Origin: Jannaschia sp. CCS1
GTDB taxonomy: Bacteria > Pseudomonadota > Alphaproteobacteria > Rhodobacterales > Rhodobacteraceae
Length of the DNA: 64,000 bases
NCBI RefSeq assembly: GCF_000013565.1
Contig: NC_007802.1
Span: 1,178,001-1,242,000 of the forward strand
Reading direction: 5' to 3'
This document shows, piece after piece, positions 8,389 through 46,044 of the stretch. Numbering within the stretch: the stretch's first letter is position 1; each line of letters begins with the position of its first letter. Both the position numbers and the translations under genes were made by a program. The notes beneath the pieces were generated by a model, which saw only the letters and a list, made by a program, of their open reading frames with translations, made no database searches and was not told the origin of the DNA.

Positions 8389-9243
8389 ATGGCGCGAAAC
8401 CTTGATCTCACCTCGCTCAGGGCCTTTGTAACGGTCGTTGACGCGGGCGGTGTCACGAAAGCTTCGGGCTTTTTGAACCTGACGCAATCGGCGGTCTCCA
8501 TGCAGCTTAAACGGCTGGAAGAGGCGTTGGACGTGTCGCTGTTTGACCGCACCACGCGCAAGCTGAACCTGACGGGCGCGGGCGAACAGATGTTGGGCTA
8601 TGCACGCCGGATGCTGGAGCTGAATGATGAGGTTCTGGGCCGCCTGACCGCCACCGAATATGAGGGGGAGATCGTTCTGGGTGTGCCCGCTGACGTCGTC
8701 TACCCGGCCATCCCGGAGGTTCTGCAACGCTTCAACACGGCCTACCCGCGCATGAAGGTCCATCTTCTGTCCCTCGGCACGCTCAGCCTGAAAGCAGCGT
8801 TCGAGCGGGGCGAGGCGGACGTGATCCTGACCACGGAAGAGGATGTGGACCGGGGCGGAGAGACGCTGTTGGAGCGTCCCATGGTCTGGATCGGAGCAGA
8901 AGAGGGGCAGATGTGGAAGCAGCGCCCCCTTCGGCTGGCGTTCGAACACGATTGCATCTTTCGCGGCCCGGCGCTCACGGCGCTCGATGCGGCAGGTATA
9001 TCCTGGGAGATGGCGGTGGACTCCGATTCGATGCGCACCATCGAGGTCTCCGTCAGTGCCGACCTAGCGGTTCATGCGGTCATCGAGGGGACGGAATCAG
9101 CCTATACGTCGATCGTGCCCCACGGCGGCGCGCTGCCCGTGCTGCCCCGCATCCGCATCAACATGTACCGCTCAGACCTGTCCCGGGCCGAGCCTGTAGA
9201 TGCCCTTGTCGATCTGATCCGCCAGGCCTACCGCTCCATCTAG
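8389..9243 (+). CDS. LysR-family transcriptional regulator
   Basis: A 284-residue regulator. The N-terminal winged HTH (residues ~5-64) shows the pattern LRAFVTVVDAGGVTKASGFL, then LTQSAVSMQLKRLEEALDVSLFDR. A periplasmic-binding-protein-like effector domain follows (from ~90: EIVLGVPADVVYPAIPEVLQ). It is transcribed divergently from the DUF1127 gene with 122 bases between, and convergent with the quinone oxidoreductase gene. The target is unknown; LysR proteins often control the divergent neighbour. Confidence 0.92.
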   Translation: MARNLDLTSLRAFVTVVDAGGVTKASGFLNLTQSAVSMQLKRLEEALDVSLFDRTTRKLNLTGAGEQMLGYARRMLELNDEVLGRLTATEYEGEIVLGVPADVVYPAIPEVLQRFNTAYPRMKVHLLSLGTLSLKAAFERGEADVILTTEEDVDRGGETLLERPMVWIGAEEGQMWKQRPLRLAFEHDCIFRGPALTALDAAGISWEMAVDSDSMRTIEVSVSADLAVHAVIEGTESAYTSIVPHGGALPVLPRIRINMYRSDLSRAEPVDALVDLIRQAYRSI

Positions 9244-36885: not shown

Positions 36886-39291
36886 TCACCCAGCCGCGTC
36901 CAGATCGTCGCTGATCCGGGCGTCGCGCGCCATTTCCGACCATTCCAGATCCCCGGTGTATCGCCAGGCCATTTGACCGGACGCGTCCAGCGCAAACAGA
37001 TGCAGCCAGCGATTGTCGAACAGGGCGCGCACGCCATCATGTCGGCGCAGGATGTCTGTCATGGCCTCACGTGGGGCCTCGATACAGACGGACAGACGCA
37101 GCGGATCGTGGGCGTATCCCTCGCCCTCATGCACCGACTGCCAGGGCAGGCCCGCACGCAGGGTGCCACCATTCCCTTCCACGACGCCAATGCCGCCAGT
37201 CACGTTATGCAGAAGTTTGTTGCCGGAGCCGAAGACATCAGGGGCTACGGTTGATCCGTAATATTGCAGGCTGATCCAGCTGGCCACGACAACCGGGGCT
37301 GTCATGATCAGTTCCAGAACGCTGAAATCACTGTCTTTCTTCCAGTCGTAATCATGCAGGAACGCGCGCCCTGCCAGGCTTTTACCTGCGGTCCGGTGGC
37401 GTGGGGCGGCGATGAAGGCCTTGCAGCCCGCCAGCGCCCATTCGGGCCGGGTTTCGGCCCAGTCGCGGCTGCGCAGGTCCACATCGGCGTCCCCATCGGC
37501 CCGGGGCAGGCGCAGCGCCCGTTCGGCGCGGGTGACGGTGCCGGCCTGTGCGAACCACGTCTCTGCCTGGGCGATGCCCGCATCATGGGCCGCAGACGGA
37601 TGATCTTTCGCGAAGAGCGTTATCGCGTCGGTGGTCGTGTCGTGCAGAGCGCCCAAAAACAGCGTGTCGGACGGCACATCTATGCCCCGATCCGCCAGCC
37701 CGGCCCGGACGTCCGGTGTATTGAGCAGCGCGGCAAGCAGCCGGGCGTTCACGTCGCCCGCGTAGCCCCCACAGGCGCCACAATGCAGACCGCTGGCAAA
37801 GGGGTTGTTCACCACGTTCGCCCCGTGTCCGGCCAGAACCACAAGCGGGGCGAAATCCGTGGTCAGCGACATCGCGCGCAGGATCGTTTCGGCCGCGTCG
37901 ATCTGTGCGTCCAGCGGCAAGGGCGGATCCAGAACCGGGGCGGGCCCATAATCGTGCGGGTCGGACCCGATGTTGAGCGCATCCCTGACCAGCTTGCCCG
38001 CATAGATCGGCCCCGTCGCCTCCACAAACGCGAAGGAGGAGACAGCGGCGAGTTTGAACCGACCCCAGGCGCGCTTGGCCCGTGCCTTGAACCGGGCCGT
38101 CTGCTCAGCGGTGACGTTTTCGCCTGTCGACGTGGACGTGACGCCAGCGTTCAGAAGCACCGGCAGGCGCAGTTCGTCCACATCTGACGCGAAGCTTTTG
38201 TGGGATGCCGTCAGCCCGAAAAACCCGGCAAAGCCCAGGGTCTGGATGCCCGGGTTCACCGCTTCCAGCGCCCGGCGGAACACTTCGGACCGCACGTCGA
38301 TACAGAACGCCGCCTGTAGCGTGGGCCGGTCCTCCCCCCGTTCCGGCGAGGGCGCGGCAATGGTGGAGGCCAGATCGCGCTGCACCGCGTGTTCCCATGC
38401 CTCTTGCAGGATGGCGTTTATGATCTCACCCCTTTGTGGTGTGACAGGTTGCGCATGGGCGGTTTTGGTCGCCTCCCATCTGTCGCCGATGCGGTCTTCG
38501 TATTGCAGGAAGAGAGCTTCCTCCCACAACAGCCGGATCGTCAGGAGGTCGGCGATGGTCTCGTCCGTGGTCTGGGACAACTCCGCCTGCCACAGATGAT
38601 ACCGGGCGACCTGTGCCCATCCGCCGAGGGAAAAGAGCAGCTGATGCAGGTATGTCTCCAGCATGTCGTCGTCCAGACCCAGCCGTTTCGCGGCCCGCAG
38701 GCGCGCCTCTTGGGCCGTGTCGGGTGTTTCGCTGACAAATTGTGCGAACCCTGTCAGCCCGGTAATTTCGGGGGTCAGGTCGTGGGTCGCGGTCTGCCGC
38801 CATGCATCATAGGCCCCACGTCTGCGCGGAGCCGCCCACAGCGCCTGGCCCTGATCAAAGAAACCAGAGGCCCAATGACCGAACCGGTCCGCGAGGATCC
38901 CTGGCCAATCGATGCCGGACATTCTGGCCGCCAGATCCGCGATGGTGGAATGCGGCTCTGGCCTGTCGAACGGGACCGCCGCGCTGCGCTTGATCTCGGC
39001 CAAGTCGGGCGCGTTGTCGATCCGGGACGCGGCACTGGCAGAGGCGATATCGTCATCCGTGATCGTCCCGTCCTCAATCAACGCAGCATAATGCGCGGGC
39101 GGCATGGTCACGGGCACGTTGCCGATCCGCCCCAACCTTGCGCTGACCTGTGCGAGGTGTTCCTCGGTCTGACCCAGAAAGGGGTTTACGGCGACGGACG
39201 AGGCCAGCGGCCAAACCGGAGGAATGGCGCGTGCGGCGCGATCGGCGGCTGTGGTCATGGTGTCGGACGAGAGGTCATGGACGGTGGTCAT
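36886..39291 (-). CDS. dabA: Inorganic carbon accumulation protein DabA (DUF2309)
   Basis: An 801-residue carbonic-anhydrase-like subunit of the DAB complex, which turns CO2 into trapped bicarbonate at the membrane. The zinc site known from characterised DabA is present: Cys330 and Asp332 in [20 protein letters not shown], His489 in [16 protein letters not shown], and Cys504 in [19 protein letters not shown]. The 15-residue spacing of His and the last Cys is as in the characterised enzyme. It is downstream of dabB by 21 bases in one operon. This form in a likely heterotroph would support anaplerotic carboxylation; that is inference. Confidence 0.93.
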
Positions 39292-39312
39292 CGGATCTAT
39301 CCTTCCCCGAAA

Positions 39313-40872
39313 TCAGGAGCGGTTTTCGGTGGTCCAGCCACCCAGAAGCTTGTCGAAGACGGCATTGGCATACAGCCCGTTGGACAGATGCACCCGCAAT
39401 CCGGCCGCGGCGGGGTGATAGGCCCAGAGCGGGAACATCGCCTGCGCCACCGCCACCACCCCAAAGCTGAGCACGGCCAGCACGATCAACGCCCATTCCA
39501 GCGGGCCGGGGGCGGGCGTGGCGGGAAGGGTGCCTGCCATCAGCCACTCGGCTGCGGTTTGCAGGGCAAAGTAACCCACCGCCGCTGCGACGGAATAGGC
39601 TGCGGTGCGTTGCGTCAGAACACGCGGGGCTGCGTCGGCCAGGCCTTGCGCCAAAAGATACGCCACGCCGAAGATCAGGATCGCGCCCAGGGCGATGGCT
39701 TGCGGCGACTTGCCCGTCAGGCCGAAGATCAGCCCGACCGCGCCGTAGATGACCAGCGCGATCAGAAACGCGCGCCCCACCGCCCCGCCGTTGGGGATCG
39801 CGACGGGGCCCGGCCTGCGGATCGCGGCGACGCCGTCCACGGCACCGCCAGAGGCAAGAAAGGCATGCGCCTTATACATCGAATGCGCCACGATATGCAG
39901 CAGCGCCAGCGGGAACAGCGCCAGACCGCATTGCAGGATCATGAACCCCATCTGCGCCACCGTGGACCACGCGAGGGAGGTTTTGACCGCCGATTGCGTC
40001 AGCATCACCAGACCGCCGAAAAGCGCCGTGAACCCGCCGATCATCACCAGCACCGCCAGCACGCCCGGCGACAGCAGCATCACGTCGGCAAAGCGGATCA
40101 ACAGGAAGCCGCCCGCATTGATGACGCCTGCGTGCAGCAGCGCGGATACCGGCGTTGGCGTCTCCATCACCTCGGTCAGCCAGCCGTGCATCGGGAATTG
40201 CGCGGATTTCAGGATGGCCGCGAGGGCGAGGGCGGCGGCGATCCACGTGGCCAGCTCGCTGCCCTGACCGCTGCGCGCTGCGTCCAGAATGGTTGCCAGA
40301 TCACCCGTTTCATAGGTGATGAAGATCAGGATCATCGCCGCCAGCATCGCGGCGTCCCCCAGCCGGGCGGTGATCCATTTCTTGCGCGCCGCCCGCCGGG
40401 CTGCAACCCGCTCAGGGTAATGCAGCAGCAGCTTGTGCAGCGACAGACTGGTGGCGATCCACGCAAGGGCAAATTGCAGAAGGTTGCCGGATATCACCAG
40501 CAGCATCACAGCCGCGAGCGTGAGGCATAGCCAGCCGGTAAAGGGCCCCTGCCGCGCTTCGCCGTCCATATATGTTGCGGAATAGCGCACCACGACCCAG
40601 CCCACGAACGCGACCAGCAACAGCATAACACCGCTGATCGCATCGAGCCGCGCGGATAGTCCAAGACCGTTCGCACCGATCAGAGGGCTGGTCCCCGGGC
40701 CTGTCAGGATAAGCATCAAAGCCGCCAACGCAGCCAGGGCCAGGACACCCAGCGCGCCGATTTCGACCTGTCTTAACACCGCTGTCGGGCGCATCTGCGG
40801 TCCACGAAACGCGATGGCCGCGAGACCGACAAAGACGACCGGGGCCACAAGGGGCAGGAAGGCGATAAACAA
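39313..40872 (-). CDS. dabB: DabB, proton-conducting membrane subunit (NuoL/MrpA-like)
   Basis: A 519-residue membrane protein of the proton-pumping-type transporter family with 13-14 helices. PMHGWLTEVMETPTPVSALL, HAGVINAGGFLLIRFADVML and SAVKTSLAWSTVAQMGFMIL are the core signatures shared with NuoL, including the conserved Lys and Glu in channel helices. It would carry the cation flow that drives DabA. It is the first gene of the dabB-dabA operon and divergent from a LysR gene by about 100 bases. Confidence 0.92.
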   Translation of the reverse strand: MFIAFLPLVAPVVFVGLAAIAFRGPQMRPTAVLRQVEIGALGVLALAALAALMLILTGPGTSPLIGANGLGLSARLDAISGVMLLLVAFVGWVVVRYSATYMDGEARQGPFTGWLCLTLAAVMLLVISGNLLQFALAWIATSLSLHKLLLHYPERVAARRAARKKWITARLGDAAMLAAMILIFITYETGDLATILDAARSGQGSELATWIAAALALAAILKSAQFPMHGWLTEVMETPTPVSALLHAGVINAGGFLLIRFADVMLLSPGVLAVLVMIGGFTALFGGLVMLTQSAVKTSLAWSTVAQMGFMILQCGLALFPLALLHIVAHSMYKAHAFLASGGAVDGVAAIRRPGPVAIPNGGAVGRAFLIALVIYGAVGLIFGLTGKSPQAIALGAILIFGVAYLLAQGLADAAPRVLTQRTAAYSVAAAVGYFALQTAAEWLMAGTLPATPAPGPLEWALIVLAVLSFGVVAVAQAMFPLWAYHPAAAGLRVHLSNGLYANAVFDKLLGGWTTENRS

Positions 40873-40976
40873 AGCAGGGCATCCTTCTGACAGACCGTGT
40901 CCGGTTCAGATAGCAGCCTCATCTACGTTAGAAAAATTCATTGTTTAGCGGAAATCATTCTGTTTAATATATTGAT

Positions 40977-41855
40977 ATGGCAGAGTTCAATTATCACCAT
41001 TTGCGATACTTCTGGGCGGTCGCCCATGACGGCAACCTCACGCGGACGGCGGCGCGGCTCAACCTGTCGCAATCTGCCGTCTCCGTTCAGATCAAGCAGC
41101 TTGAGGCGTCCCTGGGGCATCGGTTGTTTGAGCGGCGCGGTCGTCAGCTTGTCCTGACCGAGGCGGGCCGGATCGCGCTGGATCATGCGGATGCAATCTT
41201 TGCCGCGGGGCGCGAGTTGATTGGCACGCTTCAGGAAAAAGACCGTAGCCGCCAAGCCATCCGGATCGGCGCGTTGGCGACCCTGTCGCGCAATTTTCAT
41301 CTGAAGTTTTTGCAACCCATCCTTGGCCGGCAGGATGTGGAGATCATCCTGCGCTCCGGCACGAATGTGAACTTGTTGCAGGCGCTGGAAGCGCACAATC
41401 TGGACGTGGTCCTGATCAATCGCCCGCCTTCGCGCGACGCCATCACGCCATTCGTGTCCCACCGCCTGTCCGAGCAGCCGGTCAGCCTGGTGGGCACGCC
41501 TGCTTTGCTGGGAGATACGCCTGATCTGAATGACCTGCTGGCCCATCAGCCGATCATCCTGCCCACCGCCGACACCGACGTGCGCATTGGATTTGACGCG
41601 CTCACCGAGCGGATCGGCATCCGGCCCCAGATCGTCGCGGAGGTCGAGGACATGGCGATGATGCGCCTTCTCGCGCGGGAGGGGGTTGGTCTGGCGGTCC
41701 TGCCGCCTATCGTGGTCCAAGACGAGCTGAAAACCGGACGGTTGATTGAGGCGGACCGTCTTCCCGGCATTGGTGAGACGTTCTATGCGGTCACCCTGAC
41801 ACGCCGTTTCCCGAACCCGCTGCTGTCGGAATTGCTGGAAGACCGCGCGTTGTAG
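40977..41855 (+). CDS. LysR-family regulator divergent from dabBA
   Basis: A 292-residue protein with the NhaR-like start NYHHLRYFWAVAHDGNLTRT and the HTH region LNLSQSAVSVQIKQLEASLG. The effector domain (RIGALATLSRNFHLKFLQPI onward) includes VAEVEDMAMMRLLAREGVGL near the end. NhaR-type regulators respond to sodium or pH, and a CO2/pH-related signal would suit the neighbouring dab operon; this is inference. The spacer 40873-40976 is AT-rich near the LysR start. Confidence 0.9.
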   Translation: MAEFNYHHLRYFWAVAHDGNLTRTAARLNLSQSAVSVQIKQLEASLGHRLFERRGRQLVLTEAGRIALDHADAIFAAGRELIGTLQEKDRSRQAIRIGALATLSRNFHLKFLQPILGRQDVEIILRSGTNVNLLQALEAHNLDVVLINRPPSRDAITPFVSHRLSEQPVSLVGTPALLGDTPDLNDLLAHQPIILPTADTDVRIGFDALTERIGIRPQIVAEVEDMAMMRLLAREGVGLAVLPPIVVQDELKTGRLIEADRLPGIGETFYAVTLTRRFPNPLLSELLEDRAL

Positions 41856-41934: not shown

Positions 41935-41997
41935 AAAATCTCTGGCCAACGCTGCGGTGCCTCGGCAACCCTTGCGGCGTGTATGGCAGGAGATTTT
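41935..41997 (+). promoter_or_regulatory. Leader hairpin sequestering the ribosome binding site of the MNIO operon
   Basis: The outer stem AAAATCTC (41935-41942) pairs perfectly with GAGATTTT (41990-41997), which includes part of the GGAG Shine-Dalgarno (41989-41992) 7 bases before the ATG at 42000. Nested pairs are GCC (41945-41947)/GGC (41985-41987), CGCTGC (41950-41955)/GCGGCG (41974-41979) and GGTGC/GCAACC around a CTCG loop. It would block translation when folded. The ligand or opening signal is unknown. Confidence 0.55.
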
Positions 41998-41999
41998 TG

Positions 42000-44291
42000 A
42001 TGACCACCCCTGAGCCTTCCTCCGTCCCGCCAGAGACCCTCGCCGCGATCAAGGCCATGACGCAAGACGCCGCCGTGGCGGAGCTGAAGACGGTCCTTCG
42101 CGCGGCCGTCAAGCTGGAGATGGCGACGATCCCGATCTACCTCTACACCTATTATTCAGTCTGCCGGAAACCCGGGCGCAAGGACCCGCCAACGCGCGCG
42201 GGTCATCCGGTGCCCGAGAACTCCGCCTTCCCCGATCCGTCCTCCCTTTATGGCAATGCGGCCGCGGGCGTGATCATGAGCGTTGCCGTGGAAGAAATGC
42301 TGCACATGTCACTGGCGATGAACCTTCTGTCGTCCACGCTGGAGGAGGATGAAGATCTGCCGCAGATCTACGATGGGCTGACATTTGGCAACGGTGGCGG
42401 CATCGTGTTGCCAGTGCTGAGTACCCTTGCGCCTGATCCCGGGCGCGGCCCCGGCGGGCACCCGGTGGAAGTTGTCACGGGCAACGCGCTGGAAATCCCG
42501 CTCGCCAAACTCAGCCTTGATCAGTTGCAGCATTTCATGCGCATCGAATATCCCGGCAAGAAGGATTCCACATCTGGTGTGATCAATCCGACGGCACCGG
42601 ATTGGGCAACCATCGGCGAGGTCTACGACTACGCCAAGGCCCTGATCCAAAGCTGCGCTGGCGGCGCAGGGATGGAGGATGCGGTGTTCCAGAAGAACAC
42701 CACGACGCAGATCGGGTCAGACAATTACTCGGCCAGCAGCATCGACACGCTGTCGTCGGGCTCCAAGCCGTTTACCTTTGTTGATCCACCCGTGGTCGGC
42801 ACCTCCAACCCGCCCGATCATATCGCGGCCTCCACCGTGGCGCAGTTCGAGAATGATGATGCCCATGACCATGAAGGGGACGACGCGCTGTTTCGGATCA
42901 CCAGCGCGGCAGGGGCCGTGACGGCAATCAACACGATCTGCGAACAGGGGGAGGGGGCTGATTTCACCGGATACGTCGAAGACGACGATATTGAGCAGTC
43001 CCATTACTACAAATTTTGGTCCCTGTGCGCACAGCTTGATGGCTATCCCGCCCGGATGCAGACACCGCCCCAGGTTGCGGGCATGGACGCGCCGCCGCCC
43101 GTGACACCCCAGATCGCCGATTTGGGAGAGCGGTTCGTCTACAATGTCCCGACCAATCCGAAAGCGTCGGACTATTCCGATGCGGCACGGGCGACCGTGG
43201 ACGTGGCCAACGGCCTGTTTCAATACATGCTGATCCTGTCCGAGACGACGTTGCTGGTGCCCGAGGCGCACCAGAAGCTCTACTTCAACAAGACCATGCA
43301 TCAGTCGATGATCTGGGTGATGGACAAGTTCTACCAAGGCCTGCGCCATGCCCAAGACCGCGGTGTGCAACTGGTGCCAACGTTCGAAAACCCCTTCCCC
43401 GCAGGGACCACGCGAGAGACGGCGTTTGCAGCGCTGCAAGAGCTGGTACGGGTGTGTGAGGCGAAATCTGCCTGTCTGGAAGGCTACGCGGCTTTTGGCT
43501 GGACATTGGCCGAGGTGTCAGCCCTGCCGGACGTCTCGCCGTTCTGGACCGGCAATGTGGGCGAAACGCCGAGGCAATTGCCCGCCTTCCTGGATGTGCC
43601 CGACATCGCCGCCGTCTCGCCGGAGGAGGAGAAGGCCGGACATGCCGCGCATGAGACGATCATCGGCCCCGATCACCCCCGCTACACTGGTACCCAGAAG
43701 TTCCCCGCAAGCCCGCCCGAAGATCTGCAACTCGACCTTGCCGCAGGCGTCGGCAATTGGGTGCGCCATGCCTGTATGGGCCTGAATTCCTGCAAGAATC
43801 AGGGGCGCACGCTTCGTAATGATTGTGCCGGACAAGGGTGGTGTGCCACCTCGCTGGGCTACAACGCCGCCGACGTGTCGCAGCCGTTGATCTCGGACCA
43901 CACTTGTCACGTCAAAAACGATTGTCGCGGGCAAGGGGGCTGCGGGCTATATGGCACGCAGGACGAGTTGAACATGCCGGGCGGCAATACCTGCCAAACG
44001 CAAGGCTCCTGCGCCACGCCAATCAACGCGGAGCGCTTCATCACCGAAGGCGAGAACCGGCGCAAAAGCGTTTGGAAACAGGCGCGTGCGCATTTCAAGG
44101 CGGAGGTTTGGCCCGTCCTTGCCGCATCCGGTGGGGGGACGGTACCGCCGCCCGCCGATGGCCAGAACTTCCCCGACAACACCGCGCATTTCAAAGATGG
44201 CCCGACCATCGAGTGGATCGCGGATGCCAGTGGCGAGGGGATGACAGCCTGCGGGGCCAGCGGCATGAGCGGCGCGGGCAGCTGCGCCTGA
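42000..44291 (+). CDS. Ferritin-like protein with Cys-rich, MNIO-substrate-like C-terminus
   Basis: A 763-residue protein without a signal peptide. The N-terminal ~350 residues look like the ferritin-like domain found in VioB/RebD-type imine-dimer synthases: Glu40 in AAVKLEMATIPIYLYTYYSV, VAVEEMLHMSLAMNLL (Glu98, Glu99, His102), and a second ExxH at Glu332-His335 (IEQSHYYKFW). The C-terminal ~175 residues hold eleven Cys at 592, 598, 609, 615, 636, 642, 648, 665, 671, 751 and 762, giving five C-x5-C pairs such as CMGLNSC, CAGQGWC, CRGQGGC and CQTQGSC. These resemble the CKGxxxC motifs of peptides modified by MNIO enzymes. The TGA overlaps the ATG of the MNIO gene. The start is set by AGGAG before 42000. 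Confidence 0.82.
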   Translation: MTTPEPSSVPPETLAAIKAMTQDAAVAELKTVLRAAVKLEMATIPIYLYTYYSVCRKPGRKDPPTRAGHPVPENSAFPDPSSLYGNAAAGVIMSVAVEEMLHMSLAMNLLSSTLEEDEDLPQIYDGLTFGNGGGIVLPVLSTLAPDPGRGPGGHPVEVVTGNALEIPLAKLSLDQLQHFMRIEYPGKKDSTSGVINPTAPDWATIGEVYDYAKALIQSCAGGAGMEDAVFQKNTTTQIGSDNYSASSIDTLSSGSKPFTFVDPPVVGTSNPPDHIAASTVAQFENDDAHDHEGDDALFRITSAAGAVTAINTICEQGEGADFTGYVEDDDIEQSHYYKFWSLCAQLDGYPARMQTPPQVAGMDAPPPVTPQIADLGERFVYNVPTNPKASDYSDAARATVDVANGLFQYMLILSETTLLVPEAHQKLYFNKTMHQSMIWVMDKFYQGLRHAQDRGVQLVPTFENPFPAGTTRETAFAALQELVRVCEAKSACLEGYAAFGWTLAEVSALPDVSPFWTGNVGETPRQLPAFLDVPDIAAVSPEEEKAGHAAHETIIGPDHPRYTGTQKFPASPPEDLQLDLAAGVGNWVRHACMGLNSCKNQGRTLRNDCAGQGWCATSLGYNAADVSQPLISDHTCHVKNDCRGQGGCGLYGTQDELNMPGGNTCQTQGSCATPINAERFITEGENRRKSVWKQARAHFKAEVWPVLAASGGGTVPPPADGQNFPDNTAHFKDGPTIEWIADASGEGMTACGASGMSGAGSCA

Positions 44292-45247
44292 TGGGCGCGG
44301 CGGAGTATGCATCTCAGGTCAGGACCCTGCCCAAACTGGGCCTGGGCGTGGGTCTGCGCAACGAACACTTCAACCATATTCTGTCAGAGCGTCCGAATGT
44401 GGATTGGTTCGAGGCGATTTCCGAGAATTTCATGGATTCCGGTGGCCGACCCGGCTGGGTGATCCGCCAGATCGCAGAGCATTACCCAATCGTTCTGCAT
44501 GGCGTTTCCCTGTCAATCGGCAGTGCCGATCCGCTGAACGAGGGCTATCTGGCCAGGCTGAAGCTGCTGGCGGATGATGTGCAGGCCAAGTGGGTCAGTG
44601 ATCATTTGTGCTGGACGGGTGTGCTGAGCATCAACAGCCACGATCTGCTGCCGCTGCCTTTGAATGAAGAAACGCTCGGCCACGTGACATCCCGTGTCCA
44701 CCATGTCCAGGAGGTGCTGGGGCGGCCCCTGATCCTGGAGAACCCGTCCACTTACGCCAGCTTCCAGACCTCGGACATTCCAGAGCCCGAATTTCTGCGC
44801 GCGCTCTCGGATGCCACGGGCTGCGGGCTGCTTCTGGATGTGAATAACGTCTACGTATCGTGCTTTAACGATGGCACAGATCCACTTGAATATCTTGAAA
44901 AAATTCCGTTTGAAAAAGTTATCCAGATGCATCTGGCTGGCCACACAAACTGTGGAGAATTCCTGCTCGACACCCATGATCAACCGGTCACGCGCGGGGT
45001 GTGGGAGCTGTTCCGTCTGGCGTGGCAGCGCACGGGCGGTGCCGCGACCCTGCTGGAATGGGACGGCGATGTGCCCGCCTTCGAGGATCTCCACGCGGAG
45101 GTTTTGAAGGCGAGGGAGTTCATGGCCGGAGAGGTCGAGGCGCTGCACCTGTACCAGGGCGCAGCCGCACCGGGCCGGGCCCGCGTCTCAAATCCGGTGG
45201 ATCACATCGTCTCACCGGTGCGGGGCCATTCCCGGCTGGACGCATGA
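44291..45247 (+). CDS. DUF692 / MNIO-family multinuclear non-heme iron oxidative enzyme
   Basis: A 318-residue TIM-barrel enzyme of the MbnB/TglH/BufB family, which uses two or three irons and O2 to modify Cys residues. Likely metal ligands are all present: His70 (VLHGVSLSIG), Asp104/His105 (VSDHLCWTG), Glu150/Asn151 (ILENPSTY), Asp183/Asn185 (LLLDVNNVYV), His214 and His218 (QMHLAGH) and Glu256/Asp258 (LLEWDGD). It begins inside the stop of the ferritin-like gene (TGATG) and its own stop overlaps the next ATG, so the three proteins are co-translated. The substrate is very likely the Cys-rich tail of the upstream protein. Confidence 0.92.
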   Translation: MGAAEYASQVRTLPKLGLGVGLRNEHFNHILSERPNVDWFEAISENFMDSGGRPGWVIRQIAEHYPIVLHGVSLSIGSADPLNEGYLARLKLLADDVQAKWVSDHLCWTGVLSINSHDLLPLPLNEETLGHVTSRVHHVQEVLGRPLILENPSTYASFQTSDIPEPEFLRALSDATGCGLLLDVNNVYVSCFNDGTDPLEYLEKIPFEKVIQMHLAGHTNCGEFLLDTHDQPVTRGVWELFRLAWQRTGGAATLLEWDGDVPAFEDLHAEVLKAREFMAGEVEALHLYQGAAAPGRARVSNPVDHIVSPVRGHSRLDA

Positions 45248-46044
45248 GCAACGACACGTCACTGCGCGCGATGCAGGCGTGGATGCAGGCGGCACTGATC
45301 AACCCGCGCGGCGTGCGGGGGGAGGAGGTGGCCGCCCGACTTGTCCCCTCCAATCGCCTGTCGGCGGCAGAGCGTCTCGGGATCTATCAGCGCAGCTATA
45401 TCGCACGGCTCTGCGCCTGTCTGGCGGAACAATTCCCGGCTTCGCGCCATGCGTTGGGCGACGATCTTTTCGACCAGTTCGCGCGGGTCTATTTGGCCGA
45501 AGATCCGTCGGACAGCTACACGCTGCACGAGCTTGGACGCCGGTTTCCCGCGTTTCTGGACGCCTCCCGTCCCGATGCGGACGATCCGGAGCCATGGGTG
45601 ACGTTCATGATAGATCTCGCGCGGTATGAACGCACATTGTTCGTCCTATTTGACGCGCCGGGCCATGAGGGCAAGCCGTGGCCCACACCCGCAACACCCG
45701 ATGAAAACCTGATCCTGCAGCCTTGTTTCGCGCTGGGAGCCTACCAGTTCCCGGTCGCGCATTACTACCACAGCGTCGCCGATCACGCCGAGCCGGGCCT
45801 GCCGCCCCAAACCGACAGCTTCGTGGCGATCACCCGGTGCGATTATCTGACCTCGTCATTTCCGATATCCCGCCAGCATCATCTGATCCTGACGACAATG
45901 CAGGAGACACAAAGTATAGACGCCGTGCTGACGCTGGTGGCGCAGCGGGCGGGCCTGCCGGAGGCTGAGCTGCGATCCGCCTGGCGCGGTCAGATCCGGG
46001 ATCGCTGGATTGCCAACCACGTCTTTATTGATCGTCTGACCTGA
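45244..46044 (+). CDS. DUF2063-family MNIO partner protein
   Basis: A 266-residue protein. The N-terminal DUF2063 helical domain (LRAMQAWMQAALINPRGVRG, ERLGIYQRSYIARLCACLAE, FPASRHALGDDLFDQFARVY) is the known companion of DUF692 enzymes (BufC/MbnC-like role: holding the substrate peptide). The C-terminal ~120 residues are less conserved. It overlaps the MNIO gene by 4 bases (ATGA). It probably forms the modifying heterodimer with that enzyme and recognises the N-terminal side of the Cys-rich tail. Confidence 0.9.
   Translation: MSNDTSLRAMQAWMQAALINPRGVRGEEVAARLVPSNRLSAAERLGIYQRSYIARLCACLAEQFPASRHALGDDLFDQFARVYLAEDPSDSYTLHELGRRFPAFLDASRPDADDPEPWVTFMIDLARYERTLFVLFDAPGHEGKPWPTPATPDENLILQPCFALGAYQFPVAHYYHSVADHAEPGLPPQTDSFVAITRCDYLTSSFPISRQHHLILTTMQETQSIDAVLTLVAQRAGLPEAELRSAWRGQIRDRWIANHVFIDRLT

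Follow-up and report, generated by a model that had tools for sequence, protein, structure and literature searches.

An operon of three overlapping genes in Jannaschia sp. CCS1 encodes a 763-residue ferritin-like protein with a cysteine-rich tail, an MNIO enzyme and a DUF2063 partner protein, and the tail is, judging from sequence comparison, very probably the substrate of the MNIO. The operon lies in a stretch of 64,000 nt (NC_007802.1, positions 1,178,001-1,242,000, forward strand), hereafter the window, in whose numbering all coordinates are given (Table 1). A preliminary description of this DNA had read here a ferritin-like, a DUF692/MNIO and a DUF2063 gene overlapping by 1 and 4 bases, and had named the tail as the likely substrate. 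The coordinates, lengths and overlaps of that reading are exact (1 nt between P0001 and P0002, 4 nt between P0002 and P0003), the matches to PF12902, PF05114 and PF09836 all pass their cut-offs, and the proposed role of the tail is supported by its occurrence as a stand-alone open reading frame (ORF) before the MNIO gene in many relatives, by its homology to BufA2 and by its holding the sole CxGxNxCK site of the genome. The precursor-MNIO-DUF2063 gene order of Buf2 bufferins is thereby present in the window, with the precursor part fused to the ferritin-like gene.

Table 1. Features of the operon in the window.
Feature	Position	Strand	Evidence
Shine-Dalgarno-like AGGAG, 7 nt ahead of the ATG at 42000	41988..41992	+	sequence reading
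P0001, 763-aa fused protein, ferritin-like enzyme and Cys-rich tail	42000..44291	+	PF12902 5.2e-32, 111.9 bits (cut-off 22.3)
PF12902 best stretch, residues 33-243, with putative di-metal ligands E40, E99, H102, E183	42096..42728	+
Low-confidence linker, residues 536-589, joining ferritin-like part to tail	43605..43766	+	AlphaFold2 pLDDT <50
Proposed MNIO substrate, the Cys-rich tail (residues 590-763), which 22/38 relatives encode as an ORF of its own	43767..44288	+
BufA2-like stretch CMGLNSCKNQGRTLRNDCAGQGWC with C592-x5-C598 and C609-x5-C615	43773..43844	+	hhalign to BufA2
C636-x5-C642-x5-C648 unit	43905..43943	+	tail alignment
C665-x5-C671 unit	43992..44012	+	tail alignment
C-terminal C751-x10-C762 unit within the MTACGASGMSGAGSC motif	44250..44285	+	tail alignment
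P0002, MNIO enzyme, BufB-type, 318 aa	44291..45247	+	PF05114 1.4e-104, above cut-off
P0003, DUF2063 partner protein, 266 aa	45244..46044	+	PF09836 3.8e-22, above cut-off

Genome contigs were scanned with an alignment of three tails only and two peptide patterns, yielding 38 loci (L015-L052), of which L029 and L047 are the same records as genomes G385 and G072 described below and 36 are new; because two peptide patterns favour close members, this number is a lower bound for the collection. Profile searches of all ORFs found a ferritin-like gene fused to the tail or directly upstream of it in 38/38 loci (only its C-terminal part is seen in L049, and its frames are broken in L043), an MNIO gene after the tail in 37/38 and a DUF2063 gene in 36/38, L021 and L051 ending at the contig. 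Since the scan used the tail alone, these three neighbours are independent findings, and gene order and strand are identical across all 38 loci. The tail is fused in 16 of the 38 loci and forms a separate ORF directly before the MNIO gene, in the position of bufA, in the other 22 (the MNIO side of L051 being cut off in this count), so that the earlier statement that no small precursor is present is true for the window but not for these 22 relatives. These split precursors are roughly 150-260 residues long with a start of their own (AGGAG and ATG in L040), and their leader of about 12-69 residues ahead of an HAC motif, with start codons set by rule, often contains a PGxPVPxPYPYA-like motif. On the tree, the fused state requires five changes, one of which is forced by strongly supported branches, and the outgroup L104 is fused. 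In L037, a frame of 66 aa running from stop to stop (8892-9089) separates the fused gene from the MNIO gene and resembles the C-terminal end of the tail.

According to record titles and tree labels, the loci span Pseudomonadota, Myxococcota, Acidobacteriota, Actinomycetota and Cyanobacteriota, many of them being metagenome bins, whose naming is less sure and which include all four loci from Acidobacteriota and Actinomycetota. Relatives of P0001 are rare. Three of 292 genomes of the order match it, namely the genome of the window itself, G072, which holds the whole system, split into consecutive genes for a ferritin-like protein of 580 aa and a Cys-rich tail of 252 aa with MNIO and DUF2063 after them, and G047, a weak partial match whose surrounding DNA matches none of the four components (ferritin-like protein, tail, MNIO and DUF2063). 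In the phylum sample, six of 398 genomes match: the own genome, G385, where the system is complete, and four others that match weakly. Of these four, G534 carries a divergent member of the system, G334 and G531 encode PF12902 proteins without a tail, and G540 has none of the four components in the surrounding DNA. On plasmids, tblastn gave four weak partial matches (about 24% identity) with the whole of P0001 and none with the tail, and no relative was found among 74 pattern matches in viral contigs.

The tail contains 11 cysteines (592, 598, 609, 615, 636, 642, 648, 665, 671, 751 and 762), spaced as four C-x5-C groups, the third of which is double, with a C-x10-C unit at the C-terminus. Across the window and 37 relatives (L051, cut by a contig end, being dropped), nine of these cysteines are kept in 38/38 sequences and two in 37/38. 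This conservation is far beyond chance, and the C-x5-C units with MNIO-type motifs that the preliminary description had seen in the tail are present, each of the 11 cysteines being conserved in at least 37/38. We also considered a separate BufA2- or DUF2282-type precursor encoded elsewhere in the genome of the window. None was found, EGKCG and other kinds of precursor not having been sought genome-wide; this genome encodes one MNIO and one PF12902 protein, and its single CxGxNxCK codon pattern is located in the tail.

Both the enzyme and the tail show kinship with BufA2 bufferins. The NCBIfam BufB model matches P0002 with 347.6 bits and passes its cut-off of 310. For the tail, we compared 30 of 39 tails with 10 of 11 over-cut-off BufA2 matches from 96 genomes of the class, and hhalign aligned the two families with a probability of 89.6 and an E-value of 1.9e-6, across the CxGxNxCK...NxCAGQG stretch. 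Restricted to mature BufA2 columns, the score was 38.2, which was reached by 0/150 column shuffles (maximum 23.5) and 0/150 shuffles with fixed cysteines (maximum 28.3), the reversed profile scoring 23.6. Profile comparison thus supports homology between BufA2 precursors and the beginning of the tail. In a tree of 65 MNIO sequences, 38 of the system and 27 references, the system MNIOs form a clade of their own (99/94). This clade is nested in a larger one of 49 sequences (100/99), whose other members are the ten BufA2-type MNIOs and L092; all 13 Buf1-type MNIOs fall outside it. The references were drawn from 30 MNIOs found: L102 and L103, which are remote and partial, were excluded, as was L058, because L083 already represents that protein of that genome, while L059 and L079, a single protein, were kept twice. 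The reference labels follow from motif matches in the preceding ORF, except that L086, L089, L091 and L097 were assigned to Buf1 by visual inspection and L092 was relabelled "other." The gene of the nearest outgroup MNIO (L092/L104, genome G693) is preceded by one for a 685-aa ferritin-like protein (PF12902 1.3e-23) whose Cys-rich tail is divergent, and is followed by a DUF2063 gene; G534 (L118) encodes the same kind of fused ferritin-like/tail protein with an MNIO adjoining. The tails of L104 and L118, which represent a second subfamily, do resemble those of the window family, though weakly (profile E-values of 4.7e-6 and 4.6e-7 within a small set of ORFs; BLASTP 4e-4 in a single comparison). 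At L105 (3999-5705), the MNIO and a C-terminal DUF2063-like region, recognized by eye, are seemingly one 568-aa ORF; this ORF is preceded by a Buf2-like precursor with CKGQNSCKGNGGC motifs, and an ORF that by eye is DUF2282-like lies close by.

The complete set of MNIO iron ligands that had been claimed for P0002 is likewise borne out, as H70, H105, E150, D183, N186, H214, D227, H229, E256 and D258 are invariant in 27/27 aligned proteins, drawn from the 38 available system members; the roles of these ligands are partly our assumption, assigned together with an alignment to 3bww. The residue following D258 is Gly in 24/27 system members, and elsewhere Asp or Ala (BufA2-associated, 11 rows with two pairs of duplicates), Thr, Asn, Gln, Ser or Ala (Buf1 types) or Ala (outgroup L092). 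We infer that this pair corresponds to D249/F250 of FonB, the second position being a substrate-contact site that, according to PMC13097082, is occupied by Phe in FonB and by Asp in enzymes of the Cys-Lys type. DUF2063 is over the Pfam cut-off in the window partner and in 4/4 further partners scanned (L036, L040, L052 and L104); the HvfC model gave 67.9 bits against a cut-off of 142, and sequence searches of the PDB with this partner returned no match. Following PMC12452194, one half of the DUF2063 partner is assumed to be a RiPP (ribosomally synthesized and post-translationally modified peptide) recognition element (RRE).

In the ferritin-like part, two further putative di-metal ligands, E332 and H335, lie beyond the PF12902 best stretch. 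Together with E40, E99, H102 and E183, they are invariant in 23/23 aligned proteins, and in a wider alignment of 47 rows, which includes the duplicates L013 and L014 and the near-copy L048, the six are invariant in all 39 or 40 rows reaching them, the others being gaps. The resulting E, ExxH, E, ExxH pattern is one that we take to be that of di-iron ferritin-like proteins. The only solved relative at a low E-value is 3hl1, CC_0557 of Caulobacter (profile 2e-13; Foldseek fold 7.2e-5), with which the first ligand set of P0001 aligns, and AlphaFold2 places 249/763 residues at a predicted local distance difference test (pLDDT) score of at least 90, by block means within the ferritin-like part. A function as VioB, the iminophenyl-pyruvate dimer synthase, was rejected (TIGR04492, 12.9 bits against a cut-off of 1250, E 0.017), and TIGR04222, the model of MNIO-associated membrane proteins, is absent from the two NCBIfam matches of P0001 at E up to 10. 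PF12902 occurs in 15 of 299 Pseudomonadota genomes, over the cut-off in 14. The three such proteins that carry a Cys-rich tail (own genome, G385 and G534) all have an MNIO adjoining, G534 being the sole fresh case, as the other two were known beforehand, and the MNIO of G385, beyond the short flank of this control, having been seen in a separate look at the locus. None of the 12 other PF12902 loci, nine comparable tail-less and three weak partial, has an MNIO in flanks of up to 1.5 kb.

Based on these relationships, we propose as the overall explanation, and consider moderately probable, that the product of the operon is a metalloprotein of the cytoplasm equipped with a module of bufferin type. 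The DUF2063 partner would bind the tail and present it to the MNIO, as its family suggests, and the MNIO would oxidise some of the 11 conserved cysteines to 5-thiooxazoles, with a loss of four hydrogens each, as its closest characterised relatives would lead one to expect (5-thiooxazole chemistry of MNIO-PME1 systems, with a mass decrease of about 4 Da for each modified Cys and absorbance near 302-305 nm: PMC13097082). Because enzyme and tail are both kin of BufA2, a thiooxazole is the likeliest chemistry, and we regard it as the probable product. The modified tail would then bind copper or another soft metal, a step that appears rather likely, and the metal-loaded tail would act on or with the ferritin-like domain, as fusion and operon linkage suggest. 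This last step is the least certain, and functional coupling of the tail to the ferritin-like site seems to us an even call; through the putative di-metal ligands of that domain, metal binding and redox chemistry would be coupled in one protein or complex. The suggestion in the preliminary description that a Cys-derived metal site, possibly for copper, would be installed is compatible with this proposal. In its most specific form, the proposal is of a cytoplasmic ferritin-like di-metal enzyme in which several thiooxazoles made by the MNIO would serve as an integral cofactor or relay for multiple metals, on a module either fused or supplied in trans as a subunit, which we put forward tentatively, as a possibility rather than an expectation. 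If true, MNIO chemistry would be used at the level of a protein instead of a peptide, and the construction of cofactors or metal modules within proteins would be a further role of MNIO enzymes. The 22 split members, being small substrates, make the question directly testable.

The same genes could also form a RiPP pathway, in which the tail would be the MNIO-modified precursor and the ferritin-like protein a second tailoring oxidase acting on it; in fused members, substrate and enzyme would then share a single chain, from which a product might be excised. The constant neighbourhood of ferritin-like gene and tail (38/38 loci) and the leader of the split precursors, of about 12-69 residues and often with its recurrent PGxPVPxPYPYA-like motif, fit such a pathway, as does the nearest named NCBIfam match of P0001, the natural-product enzyme VioB, albeit at an E-value of 0.017 and far under the cut-off. 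The operon adjoins LANC, HopA1 and APH genes in L013, L047 and L048, and a cluster of ABC ATPases touches eight loci, its longest member (L025) resembling a peptide exporter by eye; however, this cluster occurs at scattered distances and strands, and no protease or exporter is in a fixed place. Moreover, the core is almost invariant across the sampled phyla, and most secreted RiPP natural products are not nearly invariant in their core. Fusion of a released peptide to an enzyme of about 520 residues would also be odd, and we consider such a pathway unlikely.

Two further explanations were weighed. In one, the modified tail would do no more than buffer copper in the cytoplasm and the ferritin-like part would serve just as an anchor or a store of iron, with no joint chemistry, in keeping with the copper binding of bufferins and captophorins and their link to copper stress (PMC12452194 and PMC13097082), but the putative di-metal ligands are invariant and the partnership of tail and ferritin-like protein persists in split and fused forms and in the divergent L104 and L118, which makes a mere buffer decidedly unlikely. 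It is more improbable still that the tail is a plain Cys-rich metal or Fe-S site, with the MNIO acting on another protein or peptide elsewhere in the genome. Although 11 cysteines could bind metal unmodified, the tail is a separate ORF at the bufA position in 22/38 loci, its similarity to BufA2 lies above shuffled controls, and the own genome combines one MNIO and no BufA2 or DUF2282 protein with a sole CxGxNxCK site in the tail; we give this explanation very little weight.

Several observations weigh against the proposed modified metalloprotein. Characterised bufferins are exported, whereas no signal-peptide-like stretch was found by a hydropathy check in the first 45 residues of P0001 or in 22/22 split precursors. 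This check, a 12-residue hydropathy window, covered P0001 and the split precursors, and its maxima were at most 1.09 in the split leaders and 1.08 in P0001, against 1.70-2.27 in three BufA2-type controls. The preliminary claim that none of the three proteins has a signal peptide agrees with this check as regards P0001. The contrast that it drew with bufferins is too strong, as MNIO and tail belong near BufA2 and a few bufferin-domain fusions with other partners have been published. MNIOs with signal-peptide precursors have PME-type 1 (DUF2063) partners and those with signal-peptide-less precursors do not, according to PMC12452194, and the present system, which pairs a signal-peptide-less substrate with a DUF2063 partner, breaks this correlation. 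The kinship with BufA2 is itself limited, in that the NCBIfam BufA2 model gives the tail only 11.2 bits (residues 591-617), short of its cut-off of 60, and the hhalign match spans just 43 columns. Many non-Cys positions of the tail are invariant too, a degree of conservation that seems to go beyond what a protein acting solely as a metal sponge requires, and the tail has no confident fold in AlphaFold2 (low confidence in the full model, mean pLDDT of 45.3 for the tail alone). The second ExxH region of P0001 aligns poorly with 3hl1. Finally, no further neighbour family recurs at a set position in most loci, no search by name having been made for copper genes, DoxX or sigma factors.

The surroundings of the operon were compared by clustering ORFs of at least 90 aa into families present in at least three loci, by which small genes are missed, with the duplicates L013 and L014 and L048, a near-copy of L047, excluded. 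Four clusters resulted, in eight (the ABC ATPases, assigned by eye), four, three and three loci. By Pfam, three consecutive genes, LANC-like, HopA1 and APH-type, directly precede the ferritin-like gene in L013 (11793-15276) and in L047 and L048, and among the loci searched the trio is limited to these near-identical three; we take it to be a combination of class V lanthipeptide synthetases. In L047, L048 and L050, the neighbourhood of the operon includes a sub-threshold Dyp-type peroxidase-like gene and one for a cytochrome P450 (Pfam on L013 copies), and a sub-threshold THAP4/nitrobindin-like heme-binding protein is encoded just upstream of the ferritin-like gene in L016, L018, L026, L027 and L036 (Pfam, L027 copy), on the opposite strand in L018 and L036. 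In the window itself, positions 36886-41855 contain two minus-strand ORFs, one of 801 aa and one of 519 aa that is NADH-dehydrogenase-like, next to which a LysR-type regulator is encoded divergently; the two ORFs presumably resemble the DabA/DabB inorganic-carbon pair.

Among titles, abstracts and passages, with most subscription papers and supplements outside, we found no publication joining MNIO, DUF692 or DUF2063 with such a ferritin-like protein. The word "ferritin" is absent from the main text of the MNIO landscape paper PMC12452194; in the text available, "ferritin-like" appears just in a reference title in PMC8224329 and is used for Dps in PMC7907618, both unrelated. A few bufferin-domain fusions are already in print, as MerC|Buf1, MerC|Buf2 and Buf1|Cytochrom_C|FGE-sulfatase (PMC12452194), and likewise place a bufferin-type module on a larger protein, but with partners other than ferritin-like ones. 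The adjamnio-I precursors of Table 2 of that paper share with the split precursors the lack of a signal peptide, a length of 122-293 residues, 8-21 cysteines and a position directly before the MNIO, but have a PME-type 2 partner without a DUF2063 signature, and no ferritin-like gene is mentioned in the part available; the two might overlap, the comparison being by description and not by alignment (Fig. S3). Other PF12902 proteins (CC_0557/3hl1 and VioB) share that domain with P0001, 3hl1 by profile and fold, but lack a Cys-rich tail or nearby MNIO in 9/9 comparable tail-less proteins sampled.

The closest comparison is with BufA2/Buf2 bufferins, with which the system shares the precursor-MNIO-DUF2063 order, the CxGxNxCK motif, the C-x5-C spacing, an MNIO in a larger common clade and a BufB score above the cut-off. 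The present tail differs from them in being longer, with 11 conserved cysteines, in being fused to or paired with a PF12902 protein, in its lack of a signal-peptide-like stretch and in scoring far under the cut-off of the BufA2 model. Captophorins (fontiphorin and oxazolin; MNIO-PME1, 5-thiooxazole; PMC13097082) likewise combine a BufB-like MNIO and a DUF2063 partner with a Cys-rich substrate, but here the proposed substrate is a large protein and the residue aligned with FonB Phe250 is Gly in 24/27 members. Known bufferins and captophorins are small, mostly exported copper-binding peptides; here, a modifying pair of the same type goes with a large protein that appears to be cytoplasmic and has a putative di-metal site of its own. 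If our proposal is true, the reported association of DUF2063 partners with signal-peptide precursors gains a clear exception.

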